From positions 15,969,186 through 16,033,185 of the forward strand of contig CM020620.1 in NCBI GenBank assembly GCA_009829735.1: DNA of 64,000 bases. Reading direction: 5' to 3'. Below, one piece after another: positions 1 to 18,407 of this stretch. The stretch is from Pyropia yezoensis (Eukaryota; Rhodophyta; Bangiophyceae; Bangiales; Bangiaceae). The number at the start of each line of letters is the position of its first letter. Positions within the stretch are counted from its first letter, which is position 1. The notes beneath the pieces were generated by a model. It worked only from the letters and a program-made list of their open reading frames with translations. It was not told the origin of the DNA and searched no databases. The position numbers and the translations under genes were made by a program.

Positions 1-2
1 CC

Positions 3-716
3 GAGTGGTGGCCTCAAGTTGAGGTCCCCTACGTGTTCCCGGCGTTGTTGCCACGGTTGCTTGACCACTTCGGCGCCGTCATGTTGACGGCTGGTCCTGA
101 TCACCTGGTGTGGGCCATGTTGGCCACCCAGTGGCTCCTCGAGGTCATGTCGACCTGGGTGTCCTGTGTTCAGCGGCGGTGGATGCTCTGGCATCTCCCC
201 CTCCGGCTCCTCCAAGGTTTGGAACAGCTCACCCCTCAGCTAGTTGCTGAGGGGTGCTCATCAGGACAACTCACTCTACTTGAGGAGATGCTCCGGCTCC
301 ATAAGTTTATCGAGTGGGAGAGCATTGAGCACAAGTTGCGCCGCCCCACTCGTGGGCCCAAGGATGATGGCGCACTTCGCCAGTTCGTGTGGGTCGCTCG
401 TGAACTTCACAACGGCCGTGTGGTCCTACGAGAGGGGTTGGGCATCGGGGACTACCCGTATGCCCCGGGGGTGGATCGCCACACTGCGCCACCCCCGGAC
501 AAGGCCATAGTTATGGCCGTGCCCTCATATGATGACCATATGACTCAACCCACTGCGGGGGCCCCAAGTCGGGGTCGCAGTTACACCCGGGTACCGCTAC
601 CTCGGCGGGCCCCTCCGCTTCCTCCTGTTCCTTTCCAACCTCACGGGAACAACCCGATCAGCGTGGCCGTGGAGTCTTCCTCCCCGGTGTCCCCCAACTT
701 GGGGCCACCCTCCTGA
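3..716 (+). mobile_element. Antisense open frame 1 of the gypsy element (open at left edge)
   Basis: An open frame on the strand opposite gag and pol, between the pol end and the out-of-view LTR. It is open to the left edge, so it belongs to a longer frame. The product is not recognised: a hydrophobic and helical N-terminal half, then a Pro-rich tail. Some Ty3/gypsy lineages (for example Tat/Ogre and Grande-type plant elements) are known to carry extra antisense frames at this place. Whether this one is expressed cannot be seen. It carries the element's characteristic stem-loops (12-24, 230-256, 368-382, 562-574, 692-704), which ties it to the element rather than to flanking DNA. Confidence 0.5.
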
Positions 717-730
717 CGGTATACCCCAAG

Positions 731-1312
731 TTGGTGTTGCCGCCCACGCCTCTAACCTCAGAGATGATGATCACCACGTTGGTGCGCACCATTTCCTGGT
801 TGGCCGCGTCGACCGCAACCCTACAGAGTTCCGAGACTCCTCAACCTGAGGAGCGCATTCGTACTGCAGTGGCGACCGCGAGTTGCGAGTCGTTGGCGGA
901 GTTTATGACAGCCGAGTTGGCTCGCATTGGGGCTATTATGCCCCAGCCAGCCCCACTTGGGCGTGGCAAACGTCGCGCGAGCCGGGCATACTCGCCTCCT
1001 CGCCGTCGTCGCCGACACTCGCGGCGCTCTCCTTCCGTATCCGAAGACGAGTTGTCTTACTCCGTTTCGGAGTCCTCTACCCCGTCGGAGACGGAGTCTG
1101 TCCAGCGTCTGCGTCGCAAACTTGCGCGCAAGACCAGGCAGAAGAGTGGCCACGGTCGGTGCCACTTGCGCGACCGTGAGGGGCGCGACGGTTCCGACTT
1201 GGAGCCGCCGCCCCCTCCCACAAGTGGAGACCGTTATCGGCGTGGGTCTCGCCGCTCGCCTCCACGTGAGGGCGAGGGCCGTGGAGTGGGAGAGTCTAGC
1301 ATGCGTGCCTAG
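731..1312 (+). mobile_element. Antisense open frame 2 of the gypsy element, Arg/Ser-rich
   Basis: A second open frame on the same strand as the previous one, a few bases downstream. The first ATG codons lie near 764, after a hydrophobic start. The middle of the product is strongly basic and serine-rich: a run of arginines, then Ser-Pro, Ser-Glu and Arg-Ser dipeptides, resembling the RS-type low-complexity tails of RNA-binding or nuclear proteins. No catalytic domain is visible. It contains element-type stem-loops at 877-887, 911-921, 950-962, 1044-1058 and 1193-1203. Function unknown; a chance frame in GC-rich DNA is possible, although the composition is unusual for that. Confidence 0.4.
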
Positions 1313-1423
1313 TTGGTAGCTGCCTTTGTTGTGAGAGTATGAGGGTTAGGGCTGTAGTTAAAAGCCACTCTGCGTACCACTTCGACTTGAAGCACTCTCT
1401 TGGCACTGTTGTTCGGCCTTCCC

Positions 1424-3544
1424 TCACGTTGAGGGAGGGCTGTTAGGGTCTATCTCATTCCGGGCACAGTAAGCCCGGACCTTCTCAGCGGGAAGGTCCT
1501 CCACATACTCCCACGTATCATCCTTGGCTTTGTAGCCAAACCATCGCACCCTCAACATGAGGCGGTCAGTGTCCTCATCCCATCCGTGGTCGATGAACTT
1601 ATCGAACACGTACTCCTGCGGGCCCTGTTTGGCCGCAGGCAGTGAGGGGAGGCGCCACGCTTCCAAAGCACGCGCCCAAGCTGGGTCGCCTGCAGGCGGT
1701 GGTGCAACTTTGACCACGTCCTGTCCGTTCACTGTGCGGACCCCATCGTCACTTTCGATGGCGAAGCGCCGCCCATCAGTACGAAGGACCTGGTACGGCC
1801 CCTTCGTCTGGAATACCAACTTACCCCCAGTTGGGGTGTGTGAGTGTACCAGCACCCAGTCACCCTGCTCGGGGACATGCTTAGCATTGCGCACCTTTTT
1901 GTCAAAGGTACGCTTGTAGCACTTTTGTGCTTTGTCCATCTCAGCCCTGACTTTAGGGATGAGGTTTTCAAGCCTAGCGGCGAACTCCGCCTTACTCTCA
2001 GTAGAAGTAGGCGTACTGCCACCATCCTCTCTAGCTGGGAGCGACCGCCGCACGGCAATAGACCGCACGCGACGGGGGGTCACAAAAGCGAGGGGTACTT
2101 CCCCTGTAGATGAGTGAACCTGCGAATTGTAGGCAGTGGTAAGAATAGAAATGTATTGGTCCCACGTTTTCACATGCTCACTCACATAGTGGCGCAGCTG
2201 CCTAACAATAGTTTTTTTGAAGCGCTCCACCTGCCCATTAGTTTGTGGGTGGTAGGGGGTGGCATAGTTTGCCTTAACCCCCAACATATCCAGCACTCCC
2301 TGAAACAGTACAGACGCAAATTGCGGTCCATTGTCCGATAGTGTACTATCTGGGATGCCATACGCGGCAACCCAGTGATCTAGGAAGGCTGACACGACCG
2401 ACATGGCCGTGATCTCTGCCAGTGGGATCGCTCGCGTAAGTTTCGTGAAGCGGTCACAGATGACCAGGAGGTACTGGTTGCCCTCCTCGGTCACGGGCAG
2501 TGGCCCAAGGATGTCCATCGCCAACGCGGCGAAGGGCTCCTTGGCCGGGAACAATAGCATAGCCGTAGTAGGCCGCCGTTCCATCAGACGATTCTGTGCA
2601 CAACTTGTGCAGGCAGCCACCCAACTGTAGATGTCCACCACCATGGACGGCCAGTAGTACCTGGTCCTCAGGGTCTGGTACAGTTTACTAGACCCCAGGT
2701 GTCCACCCGTGGGAGCGTTGTGCTCCCTCTCAAGGATACTGTCCTTGAGGGATGCGGGGACGACAAGTTGTTCGGTCCCCTGGAATACCCCCCTCCTCAT
2801 GAGGAGGCCATCGTCTCCCAGAAAGAAACGCGTCTCTACCACTGTATCCAGTATATCCCTCTGCGACTTGCAGAAGGGATCCTCGGCCTGGGCCTTCACC
2901 ACCTCGTCCAGGGACAGGGGCAAGTACTTCTTGTTCCCTGGCGCCTCGGGGTTCAACGCCTGACCCGAGCGCGTGACTACCCCCACGATGGGGATGTCCT
3001 CATCGACTGGGTTAGTGTCCAGCCCCTCGGTAGGTACCCGAGAGAGGCCGTCGGCAAGGGCATGTTGCCTGCCAGGTCGGTATTCAATGTCAAAGTTGAA
3101 GGGTGCCAGTCGCACCCTCCACCGGTTGAGACGAGTGTTCGTACAGTCCGTCTTAAAGATGAACTGCAACGCGCGGTGGTCACAGCGGATGAGGAACTTC
3201 TCACCCTCCAGGTAGTGACGAAGTGACGTCACCGCCCACACCACTGCGAGTCCTTCCAACTCGGTGACTCCGTAGTTCTTCTCGGCCGAGTTCAGCCCCT
3301 TACTAAAGTATCCCACCGGCAAGTACTCCTTGTCCGGCTGCTGCTGAAGCAACACACAACCAAGTTGGTCGTAGCTAGCGTCCACATCCAGGATGTAGTG
3401 GCCTCCCAACCTGGGAATAGCCAAGATGGGGGGCTTCAGCAGAAGGTCCCGAAGAGTCTCAAAGGATTCCTGCTCCACCCGACTTGGGGGAGGCAGGTTC
3501 TTCGCTAGCGTTGAGCTCACTAGCTCATTCAACGGCTTCGCCAC
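1424..3544 (-). mobile_element. Gypsy pol part: RNase H, integrase, chromodomain
   Basis: This stretch codes for the C-terminal part of a Ty3/gypsy polyprotein. In order it shows RNase H (DASYDQLG near residue 54, and a DHRAL/FIFKTD block), the integrase zinc-binding HHCC segment (near 275-320), the integrase catalytic core with its DDE pattern (MDILGPLP, LSDNGPQF, and the acidic residue in NGQVERF), and a C-terminal chromodomain-like segment (YVFDKFIDHGWDEDTDRLMLRVRWFG). The chromodomain of chromoviruses is known to steer integration toward particular chromatin. The end of the frame overlaps the stem-loop at 1420-1436. Part of a fossil element, described here only as a component. Confidence 0.92.
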
Positions 3545-3568
3545 CTTGGCGAAGCCCTTGGTGAAACG

Positions 3569-5407
3569 TCAGTACACGTTACACATCCCGAGGAAGCTCC
3601 TCATCTGGGTCTGGGTCCGGGGGTACTGAGCCCTACGAATGGCCCTCAAGTTCTTCTCGTTAACACTGAGACGCCCCGGATGGACAACATGTCCCAAGTA
3701 CTCCACCTCTTGAGTAAAGAGGTGGCACTTGCTCGCCTTCAGTGACACACCGGCGTCTGCAAGTAGCTTGAACACCTGGCCAAGATGGCCAATGTGTTCC
3801 TCCGGACTTCGGGAGAACACAATGATATCGTCTAGGTACACAAGACAGATCTGCCACCGTAATCCGGCCAGAATCATGTCCATAGCGCGCTGGAAAGTTG
3901 CCGGCACGTTACACAGACCAAACGGTAGACGCTTGCACTGGTAGGTACCACAGTGACAGGTAAAGGTAGTTTTATGCCTGTCCTCCGGGGCAATGAGAAT
4001 TTGCCAGTACCCCGCGTTACAGTCCAGGGTGGAGAACACGTTTGCCTCCCCCAGAGAGTCCAGACAGTCATCCATCCTAGGTAGGGGATAACTGTCCTTC
4101 ACCGTGCTCTCGTTGAGCTTACGGTAGTCGATACAAAACCGGGGGGTCCCATCAACTTTGGGGACGATAACCACCGGACTCGCCCACTCGGCGTTGCTGG
4201 CCTCGATCACATCGAGGGCCTCCATGCGAGCAACTTGCTCCTTAACGAGGGCCCTTGAACGAGGTCCTCCCCTATACGGTTGTTGGCGTATAGGGGGTGC
4301 ACCGGGTCTCAACTCGATCCGGTGTTGGGTGGCTCTCATGAGTCCCAATCGACCATCCCACAACTTGTGATATTGGTCCAAGAGGCGTTCAACTTGAACC
4401 CTCAACCTGGGGGGGACACCCTCCATGTTCACATGGGGTCGAGGAGAGGCGGCCGATTTGGCTTGATGCTTCTCCTTTCCGGACTTCGGGTCGCTACTTG
4501 CGCCCGCGTTGAGGGTGACCGCTACTACCGGTCCCTCGTGTTGGTCGATATAGCCGAACTTGGCTCCCGACTTGAAGTACTTGGGCGTCGGGCTCAGGTT
4601 CATCACCTGGATCCTCCTCGGGACTCCGGCTTTGGAGTCCATCGTGCCAAGGGCAACATGCACTTGGTGCTTGCGAGCAAGACGGGGGTGAGGGTGCGCC
4701 AACCCGTTCCCCGTAAAATCAGTTACAACATCAACGTGCGCCACCGAGTTGGGGGGCAACGTGACTTTGCGGGCTAAACGCAGGGTAGCAGTAAACCCTT
4801 CCCTCACCGAACAAACCGGCTTCGACTGTGAGACTGTCACAGGAGCCACAGACTTTCCCTTACCAAGGATGGGGATAGTCTCCCCATTCATCAACTTGAC
4901 CCAGTACTCAGGGCCACAAATCAAAGGCACTTGTGTAACAACATAAGGGGTACCCAGAAGCAGGGGTACCGATATATTCTCAACTACGCCATAGGTCACG
5001 TCGACCTCATGGGTCCCCAACCTAGTTGGTAGGGTCACGGCACCAACGATGGGAAGTACCCCACCATTGATGTCAATCATATGGTCAGCTTTGGACCTCC
5101 AGCGTTCGAGCTTCACCTCCTTTGGTAATAGCGACTTGCGTATCAAGGAGGCTCCTGACCCGGTATCAAGTACGATACGGGTACAGCATGCACGGCCGGG
5201 GGCAAGTTGCACCCGTCCAGCCACCTGGAAGTTCTCACCCGTCAGCACCGCGATGACCCGACGTGGGTTTACATTCTTGGGGAGTCCTACCCGAGGTGGG
5301 CGGACTCCCTTAGGTCGCCGCAGTATCCGGCACGGTTGGTTCGTCCTCCTGGCCCACTTGGCCGAGGCTGCCGTTGTGAGCTTCGGACGACCAGCCCCAA
5401 CGGTCAT
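3569..5407 (-). mobile_element. Gypsy pol part: aspartic protease and reverse transcriptase
   Basis: This stretch codes for the protease and reverse transcriptase of the element. The retropepsin active site appears as LDTGSGASLI near residue 80. The RT follows with the family landmarks FCIDYRKLN, the PLPRMDD block, and the catalytic YLDD box (LVYLDDIIVFS). The primer-grip side region ends with EYLGHVV, typical of Ty3/gypsy. The start of this frame overlaps the end of gag by four bases (an ATGA start-stop overlap), an arrangement that would suit coupled re-initiation rather than frameshifting; that is inference. Part of the same fossil element. Confidence 0.92.
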
Positions 5408-7374
5408 TTGTTTCCCGCCGACTTGGCGTCCGAATCTGAGGGCGGGGAGGAAGACGACGAGTCCGAGGACGACGTGTCCGCCTCCTCCGCCGAGGGTGTG
5501 GCGACCGCAACGACCGGTCGAGACCCACCCTCGCGGCGTGAACGTACTTCGTTCGTAGCCGACTTTTTACTCGCATTCCTAACAAGTTGTTGGATGCGCT
5601 TACTCAACTTGGGGCAATCATATGCCCAGTGACCATCGGAGTTGCAGTTCCAACACCGATGGTCCGTTCCGGGAGGGGTCTTCCCAACTGGGGAGGACGA
5701 AGGGATACCCTGGGAAGTTCCCACGGCAGCTACCACCCTCTCCTTGCGGATTCGGCGTGCCTCTCTCAACTCTCTGGCCTGGCGCGCCTCCTCCCGTTCC
5801 TTGGCCAACTCGGCCTGACGCTCCTGGCGTTGTTCCTCCCGCAACTTGCGGTAGGCCTCGCCTCTGCGATAGGCGAACCTGGCCAACTCGGCTAGGGTCG
5901 CCCGGGCAGTGTTATGCTCCCGGGTCTCCATCCGGACTGACCAATGGAGTCCCTCCACAAACCGACTCTTCACCACAGCTTGTGGATGAAGAAACCCACA
6001 AAGATTGTTGAGCTTACGGACTCGCTCCGCAAAGGACAACTCGTCCTCCGCCTCTTCCTGATGGGCTTGCGTAAACTCCTCGACTTGAGAAGCCAACGCT
6101 GCCTCATCAACCATGGCTCTCAACAACCAGTTGACGAGCTCCAAATAGGACGTCACCTCCCCAGCGCCTCCACTTGAGGAGCTGGGCATGACGGACATAA
6201 GATCTGTCCGTAGGTCGCCCTTCGTAAACTCCTGTAGCATGTAAAAAGCCATGCCTTCACTTATGGCATTGTCGTCACAGGCTTTTGTGAAACGACGTAG
6301 GAACTCAAAGACACGGAGGGGGGGAGTTCCGTCCCACTCCGCTTTGTGCCCAAAAGAATGAAGTGCATTCTTCTTGGCACGGCCCATGGCTCGGGCCTGG
6401 TCAGGACCATACGCCACCGACTTGTTGTGGAGGGCGTAGGTCTCACAGTCAAAGATCCTCTGGTAGACCGGGTTGGCTACCTGGATCTTGGGCGGCACCT
6501 CACGTTGAGGGAACAGCCGCTGTGGCACTGGGGTAAGTTCACTCTCAGTGCCTGTAGTCCGGCGCGGCGCGCTTGGTGTAGCCGCCGGCGTTTCCGGGGG
6601 GAACTCCCCCGTGAAGGGCGTACGCCCCACCGAGTATGGTGTGGCTCCCTCGTCGGGAGTCACAGGTGTCGCCCCCAGCTCGGGGCGACCAGAGATAGGC
6701 GTAAGGGTGGATTCCCCCTGCGCCTGCGGGCTCGAAAGCCCCAATCCGGTTTGGACATTAAGGCCATCTGGCAAACTCGCCACAATCTGATTCAGAATAG
6801 TATTCGTCATCGTGACCACCAGGTCCGGCAAAGTCTGCCGCAACACATTGGTCGCCTCCCGACGGACAGTTTCCGCGAGGAGTGGATTGACGACTCCAGT
6901 TGAGTCTCGGTCCGCCTCCGGGAGTCCACCTGAGGGGTAACCACGTTCCTCAGGGGTCTCAACCGGGGGCATGGGCGCGAGCCCATCGCCGACCAACGGA
7001 GGTCCACCGTCCTCCGAAAGCCTAGTTGGCGACGACTCCAAGCCAAAGTTGGCTCCAACCCGAGTGGAACCCGCGGGGACAGTCCTCACCCCTTGGGACG
7101 TTCCCGTTGAGTATACCACACGGTGGCCAGACTTCGGCCCACCCACATCAGAAGTGTCACCCGAGTGAACTCCCGACTGAGTCGGGGTGGCCTGTTGCCC
7201 GCCCGTACTTCCAGTCCTGCTGGCTTGAGGGACCTCTAGTCCCTCTGCGACCCCAGGTAAACCCACCTGTGTCTCACCAGTATTCAAAGGCACTGAAGTA
7301 CGTGCGTCACCCGTGTACTCCCCGGACGACGGGGGGTCCGAGCTAGCCATGTTGGCTGACGATCCGTATGACAC
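5404..7374 (-). mobile_element. Gypsy gag
   Basis: A 656-residue gag-like product. The N-terminal third is low complexity (Gly, Pro, Thr, Ser). A capsid-like helical core follows in the middle, with the sequence around WDGTPPLRVFEFLRRF and YLELVNWLLRAMVDEA. Then comes a long Arg/Glu/Ala-rich stretch likely to form a coiled coil (REEQRQERQAELAKEREEA). Near the C-terminus is one CCHC zinc knuckle (CWNCNSDGHWAYDC, spacing C-x2-C-x4-H-x4-C), the RNA-binding mark of nucleocapsid. The last 30 residues are Ser/Asp-rich. Gag would package the element's RNA in cytoplasmic particles. It is read leftward and begins about 70 bases after the primer-binding site. Confidence 0.9.
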
Positions 7375-7447
7375 GGTCCAAGACCACCGTTCCTCTGAGA
7401 CAGAGGGCCCCCTACACCCGGGTGCACCCGGAGGTAAAGTTTACCTC

Positions 7448-7467
7448 TGTCCCCTGCTGCTCCACCA
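7448..7467 (-). promoter_or_regulatory. Primer-binding site of the gypsy element
   Basis: Directly inside the LTR, after a two-base spacer, the minus strand reads TGGTGGAGCAGCAGGGGACA. This begins with TGG, the complement of a mature tRNA CCA end, and matches the expected position of minus-strand primer binding in LTR elements. The implied tRNA has a 3' end reading CTGCTCCACCA. The tRNA species cannot be named without a tRNA set from this genome. Confidence 0.8.
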
Positions 7468-7469
7468 AA

Positions 7470-7938
7470 TGTGGCAAAAACCACTAGCACACACGGCACC
7501 CAAGTTGGGGCGGTGTGCTAGGGCTGCCTCCCGTGTCGGGGGAACCGGAAGAAGTGCAAGTCGCACACACTCTGTCCCTGTTGTGGGGCAAACCCCCCAC
7601 GGACAAACAAGAGGATGGTGTGTGGTCCAACAGTTTCTTGGTCGGGACGGGGACGCAGGGCCAAGCCCCGCTGTCCCTCCCCTTATCCCCCCAGGGTCCA
7701 CTCAGAATCTCGCCACTCAGAATCTCCCACCCCAGCACCTGCCCACCGGGCCACACGAAAATTCAAGACGATAAATGCAGAAAACCCTCAAATCCAAGTT
7801 GGATTTACTACTAAGCTAACTATCCCAAACTTAGGGAATATGGACCCAAATGCAGGGGGAGGAACGGATCAGGCTAGTGGCCTGCCGCCCCTTGCATGGC
7901 ACGTGTTGCCCCCCTACCTGGGGGTCAATACTGCCACA
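7470..7938 (-). repeat. 5' LTR of the gypsy element (469 bp)
   Basis: Bounded by TGTGGCA at 7470 and TGCCACA ending at 7938, a perfect 7-bp terminal inverted repeat of the TG...CA form. The inner end abuts the primer-binding site. It would hold the promoter and polyadenylation signals of the element, but no clear TATA box was identified by eye. It carries stem-loops at 7499-7509, 7790-7806 and 7910-7924 of the same style as the coding part. Boundaries rest on the terminal repeats and the primer site, because the partner LTR lies outside the window. Confidence 0.85.
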
Positions 7939-16787: not shown

Positions 16788-18407
16788 ATGCGAGCGCCAC
16801 AGCTTTCACGCCTTCTACTCATCCCTTCGTCGCGCACTCCCCAGCGTACCTCGGCACTGCCACAACCTCCGAAAACTAGCACCATGTCTCCGCACTCGGC
16901 CGTGAGCTCTCAAGTCCTCATCGTCGGAGCCGGCCCCACCGGCTACACCACCGCAGCCGCTTTGGCAGAAGCTGGCTTCCAAAATGTGACGATCCTGGAT
17001 GCACGCCCTGACGCCACCATGTTCGAATGGGAGCGAGCCTACAGCTTGGTGCTCACGAGGACAGGACAGCGACTGCTGGAGTCGCTGCCCAAGCTGGGCG
17101 AGCTTGTGAAGCGCGAGGCCATTTGCCAGCATGTGCGAGTGGACGCTGTGCTTGAGCCCGATGGTGGCGTGTCCATGAGCTCCCGCCGCCCTCCGGCAGG
17201 GCCTATGTATTGGCTGCTCAAGACGCGACTGCTCGAAATCATGGACGAGCATGTTCGCAGCCGCTACCCAAGAGTGCGCTTCATCACAGGTGCGTCTGTG
17301 AAAGATGTCGTCCTGCCGAACGCGCCGCCTGCTGGCATCGCTCCAGCCGCCCCCGCACAGGTGAAGGTGACCCACGCTGCTGACGGACGGGAAGAGCTAC
17401 TGGAAGCCGACCTATTGGTTGCATGCGATGGCTCCAATTCTGTTCTGCGAACCCTGTTCTCTACGCAGGGGACTCGGGTGGACAGCACGTACGGCACGGG
17501 CATCTACTCCCGGCCAAGCCCAGCAACGGGCATGTGCCACAAGGGAGTGGTGTTGGAAGCGCGACCAATAATCTCCGCCCCAGGTGTGCCTGTGCAGTAC
17601 GCGCAGCCTTCTGTGGTATATACGCTGCGCGGGGCCCGCGGCGCGCGCGATGCGCGCACCGTCTTCGACATGCTGCTGCTTCCTGTCGACGTCGGTGCCC
17701 GCACAGGCCGGCGAGGTGCCATTACAGTACCAGCTGGACACGCTTTGATGGAAGCCAAGGACGCGGACGAAGCGCTTCAGCTGCTTCGAGACAACTTCCC
17801 GCAGCTACGAGTGGATGAATGCGTATCTCAAGCCGAATTGCAGAAGTTTGTGACGACCACTGCGGCTGTGTTCCCTCCTGTTGTTCGCCCACACTCGCTT
17901 GTCGCCCGCTTTCGCGACGTCCCCCGGCAAGGGGGCGTGATGTTCATCGGAGATGCCGCCCACAGCTTCCCGCCAGACTCGTCGCAAGGGGTGAACAGCG
18001 CGCTGCAAGACGTTGACGTCCTACTGCGCTTGGCGCGGTCAGCCGTTGGGTCCGGCGCGTCGCTGCACGACCTGCTGTCCGCGTATGAGGCGGCGCGGCA
18101 CGCTGAGACGTGGGCGTTGATGGAGCTTGTGGCGATAGCCGCGCCGTATCAGTACGGTCAGAACCGCGTAGGTTCCGCGCGAGCGGCAATCTCACGGCGC
18201 GTGCGCTCCGTGATGGCGGTGGTTGCGCCCGGCGTGTGCTCGCCGCACGTGGACACGCTTATCCGCCAAGGCCTGACGTACCGAGACGTCCGTCGTCGCG
18301 ACCGCCGGTCGGTGGCGGTCCTGTGGGTGCTGGCGGGGGCTCTGCTTACCGCACCACTGGCGGTGGCGGCAGCTGCCAGTCGCGGCAGCGAAGATCTGGC
18401 AGTGTGA
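16788..18407 (+). CDS. FAD-dependent monooxygenase, kynurenine 3-monooxygenase-like
   Basis: A 539-residue flavoprotein of the group A aromatic hydroxylase family, which uses NAD(P)H and O2 to hydroxylate an aromatic substrate. Landmarks: the FAD-binding GxGxxG as GAGPTG (47-52), the DG motif in ACDGSNSVLR (212-221), and the GD motif GDAAHSFPPDSSQG (388-401). RAYSLVLTRTGQRLLESL (83-100) resembles the RSINLALSHRG segment of kynurenine 3-monooxygenase. A hydrophobic helix near 508-530, close to the C-terminus, fits the tail anchoring known for that enzyme on the mitochondrial outer membrane. The frame starts right after an in-frame stop. A second ATG at 16884 (residue 33) has the better context (gcaccATGt). 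The 32 residues between the two starts hold Arg, Ser and Leu and no acidic residue, like a mitochondrial presequence. There is no intron. Substrate is not proven; other aromatic hydroxylases are possible. Confidence 0.88.
   Translation: MRAPQLSRLLLIPSSRTPQRTSALPQPPKTSTMSPHSAVSSQVLIVGAGPTGYTTAAALAEAGFQNVTILDARPDATMFEWERAYSLVLTRTGQRLLESLPKLGELVKREAICQHVRVDAVLEPDGGVSMSSRRPPAGPMYWLLKTRLLEIMDEHVRSRYPRVRFITGASVKDVVLPNAPPAGIAPAAPAQVKVTHAADGREELLEADLLVACDGSNSVLRTLFSTQGTRVDSTYGTGIYSRPSPATGMCHKGVVLEARPIISAPGVPVQYAQPSVVYTLRGARGARDARTVFDMLLLPVDVGARTGRRGAITVPAGHALMEAKDADEALQLLRDNFPQLRVDECVSQAELQKFVTTTAAVFPPVVRPHSLVARFRDVPRQGGVMFIGDAAHSFPPDSSQGVNSALQDVDVLLRLARSAVGSGASLHDLLSAYEAARHAETWALMELVAIAAPYQYGQNRVGSARAAISRRVRSVMAVVAPGVCSPHVDTLIRQGLTYRDVRRRDRRSVAVLWVLAGALLTAPLAVAAAASRGSEDLAV

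Follow-up and report, generated by a model that had tools for sequence, protein, structure and literature searches.

The left end of a 64,000-nucleotide stretch of the red alga Pyropia yezoensis (GenBank assembly GCA_009829735.1, contig CM020620.1, positions 15,969,186 to 16,033,185; hereafter the window) is occupied by a Ty3/gypsy long terminal repeat (LTR) retrotransposon, lying on the minus strand, which carries a large excess of short perfect hairpins with related five-base loops. Its family is referred to as family A, or A, and was analysed together with other retrotransposons in a genome of 107.5 Mb with three large contigs (43.59, 34.33 and 29.39 Mb). As in other Ty3/gypsy elements, the domains follow the order reverse transcriptase (RT), RNase H and integrase, Gag harbors a zinc knuckle, the 469-bp LTR has TG...CA ends, and one insertion shows a short target-site duplication. 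The 5' LTR (TGTGGC...GCCACA, 7470..7938) is backed by its matches elsewhere in the genome. It is followed on the minus strand by the gag frame (5404..7374, 656 amino acids, with the CCHC zinc knuckle) and by a pol frame in two parts, the first containing RT (RVT_1; 3569..5407) and the second RNase H, integrase and a weak chromodomain match (1424..3544), all three recognized as open frames with domain matches. In the window copy, RT and RNase H are encoded by two different frames; many other copies have a single frame of 1380 amino acids. A chromodomain at the integrase C-terminus is a mark of chromoviruses, and the match to it here (PF00385, E 5e-4, 20.4 bits) stays below the curated cut-off of 25.1. 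Between integrase and the 3' LTR, two antisense open frames occupy positions 33-1312 of the plus strand (33..716, and 731..1312, which is Arg/Ser-rich), neither of which has a match in Pfam; Rfam likewise gave no match within the window at gathering thresholds. The original prediction had bounded the element at 12..7924, which is wrong at both ends: the 5' LTR spans 7470-7938, and the 3' part runs past the left edge of the window, the lost sequence up to the 3' LTR amounting to some 970 bases, as judged from three other copies (L003, L015 and L017).

Family A is young and abundant. LTR matches are 99-100% identical in 40 of 40 scored and RT matches 97-100% in 72 of 72 scored, these copy counts being lower bounds from the best candidates. 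The copies found are mostly 95-99% identical (median 98.8% over 60 aligned pieces). At L032 and L033, one copy is nested inside another, flanked by the 5-bp duplication GTCCC; at the other insertions a single side is available. At L003, L015 and L017, a single LTR stands between the 3' end of the element and a putative primer-binding site, and neighboring copies thus seem to share an LTR in tandem. Protein searches found 24 relatives, including one gag relative from Pyropia vietnamensis, and no DNA relatives in other organisms were found among the viral and genome contigs searched.

Hairpin excess and the loop rule

Hairpins were defined as perfect arms around a fixed gap and were counted over positions 1-7924 of the window, the main class having a gap of five bases between arms no shorter than 4 bp. 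This range contains 111 such hairpins, against a mean of 36.3 (standard deviation 6.4, maximum 52) in 100 dinucleotide shuffles; for arms of at least 6 bp the count is 19 against 2.8. The excess is thus stronger than originally claimed, when about 31 were expected for 4-bp arms around a five-base gap. Among the 111, 35 have the loop NASTT (S being G or C) or its complement form AASTN: 26 are NASTT on the plus strand, where at least sixteen had been noticed before, and nine are AASTN.

These 35 are spread over the whole element. In the left region (1-1423), the scan located cctc-AAGTT-gagg at 12..24, TAGTT with 11-bp arms at 230..256, CACTT at 368..382 and 950..962, AAGTC at 562..574, AACTT at 692..704, GAGTT at 910..922 and 1044..1058, and GACTT at 1380..1392. 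The RNase H-integrase part has loops CAGTT (1823..1837), AACTC (1979..1991), TACTT (2091..2105 and 2921..2933), TAGTT (2261..2273), AACTT (2597..2611) and GACTT (2860..2874), and the RT part has AACTT (4228..4240 and 4387..4399) and CACTT (5351..5363). The gag frame has GACTT at 5416..5428, TACTT at 5540..5554, AACTG at 5682..5694, AAGTT at 5711..5723, AACTC at 5803..5815, 6033..6047 and 6598..6610, AACTT at 5839..5851, CACTT at 6167..6179, AAGTG at 6354..6372, AAGTC at 6826..6840, and CAGTT at 6863..6875 and 6892..6906. The remaining three are AAGTT in the leader (7431..7447), and AAGTC (7554..7566) and AAGTT (7790..7806) in the LTR.

Against dinucleotide shuffles, this loop class occurs 9 times in the left region (mean 0.05, maximum 1) and 3 times in the LTR and leader (mean 0.02, maximum 2). 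For the coding frames, 300 synonymous shuffles per frame yielded means of 0.47 for gag (13 observed, maximum 3), 0.38 for the RNase H-integrase part (7 observed, maximum 3) and 0.40 for the RT part (3 observed, maximum 3, so that the shuffles reach the count). A second, uniform test used loops of 3-8 bases, arms of at least 5 bp and 150 synonymous shuffles, with AASTT-like loops counted at arms of at least 4 bp. Hairpins then number 28, 19 and 28 in gag, the RT part and the RNase H-integrase part (means 12.0, 9.3 and 11.4), and AASTT-like loops 16, 6 and 9 (means 0.8, 0.6 and 0.4), none of the 150 shuffles reaching any of these values. The antisense frames, shuffled synonymously in their own right, gave 14 hairpins against 3.5 (maximum 12) and 7 AASTT-like loops against 0.24 (maximum 2) at 33-716, and 9 hairpins against 4.3 (maximum 10, thus reached) and 5 such loops against 0.38 (maximum 3) at 731-1312. 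The earlier statement that protein coding alone is insufficient stands, as the excess of the loop class survives synonymous shuffling, the narrow class in the RT part being reached; the shuffled controls proposed as a check, whether dinucleotide- or codon-preserving, do not reproduce the counts. Hairpins with loops of 1 to 8 bases number 50, 49, 50, 31, 77, 46, 44 and 27, a count made without shuffles and omitting loops of three or more bases whose ends could pair. Loop length 5 stands out, without being alone.

The loop rule is broader than NASTT, since a pentamer that differs from AASTT by a single base has flanking arms about as often as AASTT does. Over the whole element, perfect arms of at least 4 bp enclose 50 of the 205 pentamers that lie within a Hamming distance of 1 from AASTT, compared with 61 of the 7708 others. 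By distance, the rate is 9/36 at 0, 41/169 at 1, 22/813 at 2 and 39/6895 at 3 to 5. A single mismatch is tolerated about equally at loop positions 1, 2, 4 and 5 (9/38, 6/33, 9/29 and 17/66); the row for position 3 also includes AAGTT and AACTT themselves. The arm sequence is free, except for a lean to a C-G closing pair (23 of 35 have the C on the 5' side). Applied to 11.6 kb of flanking DNA, the same test gave 0/14 at distance 0 and 2/180 at distance 1 (2/194 together), and in the 12 kb to the right of the element neither the five-base peak nor the loop rule was found.

Read on the genomic-RNA strand of A with arms of at least 3 bp, the loops comprise 28 AASTV, 11 BASTT and 14 AASTT. The ratio of AASTV to BASTT is 12:2 in pol and 0:1 in the LTR and leader, and where the open frames are antisense it is 9:1; pooled with one locus of the related family B (L051), it is 37:13 (binomial p 0.0009). 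The sense RNA of gag, the RT part and the RNase H-integrase part folds more stably than synonymous shuffles (z -7.7, -7.5 and -8.2; 20 shuffles per frame). Stems of Watson-Crick pairs alone account for most of the enrichment, being 5-8x over shuffles beside a weaker enrichment of stems with G.U or A.C; for five-base loops in A, the values are 8.1x, 2.6x with one inner G.U and 2.2x with A.C.

Related families and change between copies

A second family, B (L051-L062), encodes a Gag that is 48% identical to that of A over 378 amino acids and follows the same loop rule. All 12 of its loci have 7-10 motif loops per 4.7 kb (shuffle means 0.05-0.4) and 8-12 hairpins with arms of at least 6 bp (0.9-1.8 in shuffles), and two further copies of B type, L072 and L073, have 5 and 4 motif loops (0.11 and 0.04). 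The ratio of AASTV to BASTT is 9:2 at L051, 9:3 at L062 and 8:2 at L054, turned to sense. The hairpins of the two families are at different places: of 21 alignable A hairpins in gag, 3 coincide with a B hairpin, where 4.0 are expected by chance, and the gag alignment revealed no individual hairpin conserved between A and B. Hairpin places thus turn over while the loop rule stays.

Other families were sampled at one locus each, drawn from lists of 150 RVT_1 and 144 RVT_2 matches: C (L065), D (L066), E1 (L063) and E2 (L064), chosen by open-frame length before hairpins were counted, and a copia element (L074), the top match. The Gag proteins of C and D are 25% and 28% identical to that of A and 41% to each other. 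Their pol frames contain 46 hairpins against 23.9 and 44 against 16.9, respectively, neither value being reached by any of 150 synonymous shuffles. C favors 5- and 6-base loops with long arms. In D, hairpins whose loops have 3 or 4 bases and no set sequence are strongly over-represented, with 48 tetraloops against 14 at arms of at least 4 bp. The Gags of E1 and E2, whose pol genes are 88% identical, resemble the other Gags at the zinc-knuckle end only. Neither locus has a hairpin excess (14 vs 12.5 and 18 vs 14.9, reached by 50 and 45 of 150 shuffles) or any AASTT-like loop; the sense RNA of E1 still folds better than codon shuffles (z -5.3), the antisense RNA not (z -1.4). The copia element has 28 hairpins against 21.7 (reached by 12 of 150) and no AASTT-like loop. 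The families with homologous Gags, A, B, C and D, are thus all hairpin-rich, with totals reached by none of 150 synonymous shuffles. In the few families sampled, a strong hairpin excess tracks a single Gag lineage, and the AASTT rule is seen in A and B, plus a few cases in D.

Other copies of A keep the hairpins, contrary to the second outcome that the original prediction had named as refuting it: for 67 of 87 sites, the hairpin occurs in 24 or more of the 30 pol-centered copies. An abundant noncoding derivative (L017, L019 and 40 scored places) retains the LTR, the leader, the start of gag and scattered pieces. Over sense positions 481-965, L017 and L019 are about 20% different from A (L017 is about 80% identical over 483 nucleotides). 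This stretch contains 9 hairpins in A, 12 in L017 and 10 in L019, against 2.3-2.6 in shuffles (maxima 8, 8 and 9), and 2, 3 and 3 AASTT-like loops, against 0.04-0.06. Some of the L017 hairpins are new relative to A. Two pairs, in two stems, have both partners changed in L017 with pairing preserved, and a one-base gap adjoins one of these pairs.

Stems are less variable than chance hairpins picked in the same way with loops of 10-15 bases: 32/1034 against 62/992 variable sites (p 0.001, over five overlapping comparisons), and 25/587 against 43/548 (p 0.012) over three comparisons. For variants shared among the 30 pol-centered copies, stems have 10/564 and the sequence outside 134/3936 (p 0.04); compared with chance hairpins, the p value varies with the copy threshold and is 0.13 or 0.045. 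Taken together, the aligned copies weakly suggest selection on stems. A copies are nearly identical and only the L017/L019 stretch is more diverged, leaving too little variation for a strong covariation test.

Candidate recognition by Gag and its alternatives

Tentatively, the hairpins may be read as degenerate recognition sites that are not tied to fixed places along the genomic RNA and whose likeliest partner would be the Gag of the element itself, by analogy with the dispersed packaging signals of RNA phages. The genomic RNA would carry a dispersed cis-acting signal consisting of short stems of free sequence with a five-base loop near 5'-AASUU (mostly AASUN on the sense strand), and Gag would recognize these hairpins many times per RNA while selecting the genome and packing it into the particle. 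This reading is preferred because the loop rule is combined with free stems, the sense lean persists even under the antisense frames, hairpin richness is tied to one Gag lineage, and hairpins persist in a noncoding passenger, which would need only cis signals. From these patterns we infer that the relevant strand is the RNA, that the hairpins are under selection and that they are recognized by Gag. RNA structures bound by Gag or RT were among the causes suggested in the original prediction, and this suggestion fits best, given the Gag-lineage tie, the sense lean of 37:13 and the undiminished hairpin density of the noncoding derivative, with the binding itself still putative. The hairpin richness of A and of relatives with the same type of Gag suggests that the RNA of the element contains many copies of a recognition signal. 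A broader proposal, which is possible and rather doubtful, is that one Gag lineage writes a dispersed packaging code along the whole genomic RNA, made of dozens of free-stem hairpins whose loop rule evolves in step with Gag (AASUN for A and B, different loop lengths and sequences for C and D). These hairpins would shift position over time and be retained by noncoding derivatives that make use of that Gag.

Several observations weigh against recognition by Gag. The orientation of the loops is not one-sided in gag (7:7), is reversed in D (0:3) and, for A alone at arms of at least 4 bp, is 17:9 (p 0.17); C contributes 1:0. The antisense RNA of A, too, is more stable than synonymous shuffles (z -4.1 to -9.4). 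For loops of 3-7 bases, G.U is not preferred over A.C in A (1.42x vs 1.86x) or B (2.4x vs 2.7x), is slightly preferred in C (2.0x vs 1.1x) and hardly in D (1.4x vs 1.3x). The corresponding Watson-Crick, G.U and A.C values are 2.3x, 2.1x and 1.3x for E. coli rRNA, and 3.8x, 2.4x and 2.9x for phage MS2; as MS2, with its known packaging hairpins, has the same balance of G.U and A.C as A and B, this comparison neither supports nor refutes an RNA function. In the L017 stretch, one-sided stem changes (7/37 pairs when A is the reference, 6/49 when L017 is) outnumber two-sided ones (1 or 2). Stems are not less variable than all other sites (p 0.29 and 0.75), the shared variants pooled over three sets indicate weak conservation (19/1378 vs 189/8725, p 0.065), and those of family B go the opposite way (8/556 in stems, 38/3226 outside). 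The loop rule is absent from hairpin-rich C (1 AASTT-like loop against 0.45, reached by 60 of 150 shuffles), and AASTT-like loops are few in D despite its hairpin richness (4 against 0.42, reached by none of 150). The correlation with Gag rests on few, related families, including E1 and E2, and the pol genes differ as well. Finally, mild excesses occur in host DNA: the flank has 30 perfect 6-bp stems with loops of 3-7 bases against 17.2 +/- 4.5 (E1 and E2 together have 11 against 10.8), and a host open reading frame at 16788-18407 has 19 hairpins against 11.2, reached by 2 of 150 synonymous shuffles.

Some of these points are what would be expected if selection favored locally folded RNA in general, for stability, packing density or hiding from small-RNA or double-strand sensors, with no specific loop-binding partner and with AASTT as a preferred stable loop in A and B. 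The folding of both strands of A beyond synonymous shuffles and the richness of C and D in hairpins with other loop sizes and few or no AASTT-like loops are consistent with such compaction. A preference for a stable loop alone does not readily account for arms being about 30 times as frequent around a single loop family, or for the absence of the AASTT loop from C, and this explanation appears somewhat unlikely. A mutational origin, in which the reverse transcriptase of the lineage switches templates at short quasi-palindromes and so generates perfect hairpins without function, would agree with the enrichment mainly of perfect Watson-Crick stems and less of stems with a G.U, with the turnover of hairpin places between families and with the new hairpins of the noncoding derivative. 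Template switching has been described as able to create and maintain hairpins, according to excerpts of one report (PMC8794818). Such an origin predicts neither a loop sequence nor a strand bias. Moreover, no loop inversions were found at the 87 hairpin sites in the 30 pol-centered copies, which are very close to each other, and clustered pairs of changes number 4 over the 900 hairpin columns and 137 over the 3936 remaining ones, once 60-column stretches whose mismatch exceeded 15% had been masked. Hairpin-directed template switching, one of the originally suggested causes, gains no support from these counts, which have low power with such similar copies, and is in our estimate an unlikely rival.

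The function might instead reside in DNA, with hairpins in single-stranded cDNA or cruciforms, on either strand, being used in reverse transcription, in integration or by a chromatin protein. The enrichment of both loop orientations, which are equal in gag, and the lack of a preference for G.U in A and B are compatible with this idea; the overall bias toward the sense strand and the 5-bp flanks of A insertions, which are unlike the loop, argue against it, making it improbable. The flanks bear on one specific version, in which the five-base loop would correspond to the 5-bp target-site duplication. At 3 of 20 LTR loci (L003, L015 and L017) the LTR follows the 3' end of the element itself, and none of the remaining 17 flanks is within one change of AASTT by eye, indicating that the hairpins are not integration sites of A; this version was rejected. 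The insertion of small palindromic elements, also suggested originally, is disfavored, as the arms differ, the reading frames run through the hairpins, and the gags of A and B align across A hairpins that are missing in B, whose own hairpins lie elsewhere. Chance, base composition or codon usage might be invoked in view of the mild excesses in host DNA and is refuted by the dinucleotide and synonymous shuffles, so that its probability is negligible.

Recognition of dispersed hairpins by Gag can be placed beside several known systems. In genome-scale ordered RNA structure (GORS), as in A, coding RNA is more stable than its codon shuffles; to our knowledge GORS has no loop sequence rule. Excerpts of a study of MS2 and other single-stranded RNA viruses describe dispersed packaging signals with a shared recognition motif, which in MS2 is a loop (x)xYA with a 5' bulged A (PMC6281560). 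Like RNAs with such signals, A has multiple stem-loops with a short, degenerate loop motif in common along its coding RNA, and the Watson-Crick hairpin enrichment of MS2 itself was seen in the same scan. Unlike MS2, A is a Ty3/gypsy retrotransposon, and its putative motif, AASUN, is known here from sequence. In yeast, the RNAs of Ty3 and Ty1 are packaged into particles and their structured regions are dispersed, and localization and packaging of Ty3 RNA require both untranslated regions and POL; its packaging sequences are described as not precisely defined, and the excerpted text of this account mentions no repeated shared-loop hairpin for either element (PMC11381356). In the titles, abstract openings and passages retrieved from one open-access library, no description of shared-loop hairpins along an LTR retrotransposon was found. 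Dispersed packaging signals are known from RNA viruses; for an LTR retrotransposon, a loop rule backed by explicit statistics was not encountered in these open-access texts.

The way in which LTR retrotransposons select their own RNA is not well defined. A statistically very strong loop rule with at least 35 repeats in one element provides a testable candidate ligand for Gag and a route to packaging signals from sequence alone. Should the cause be mutational, the hairpins would represent an unusually strong footprint of template switching by a reverse transcriptase in a natural genome, so that either outcome is informative.

Two further features lie to the right of the element. The host open reading frame at 16788-18407 is unbroken over 539 amino acids and resembles FAD monooxygenases, and its folding energy is ordinary (z 0.6). 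From about 19400 to 62000, the window is filled by a long tandem array with a period of 502 bp and a GC content of 0.50, compared with about 0.58 around it, which is probably a satellite and perhaps centromeric.

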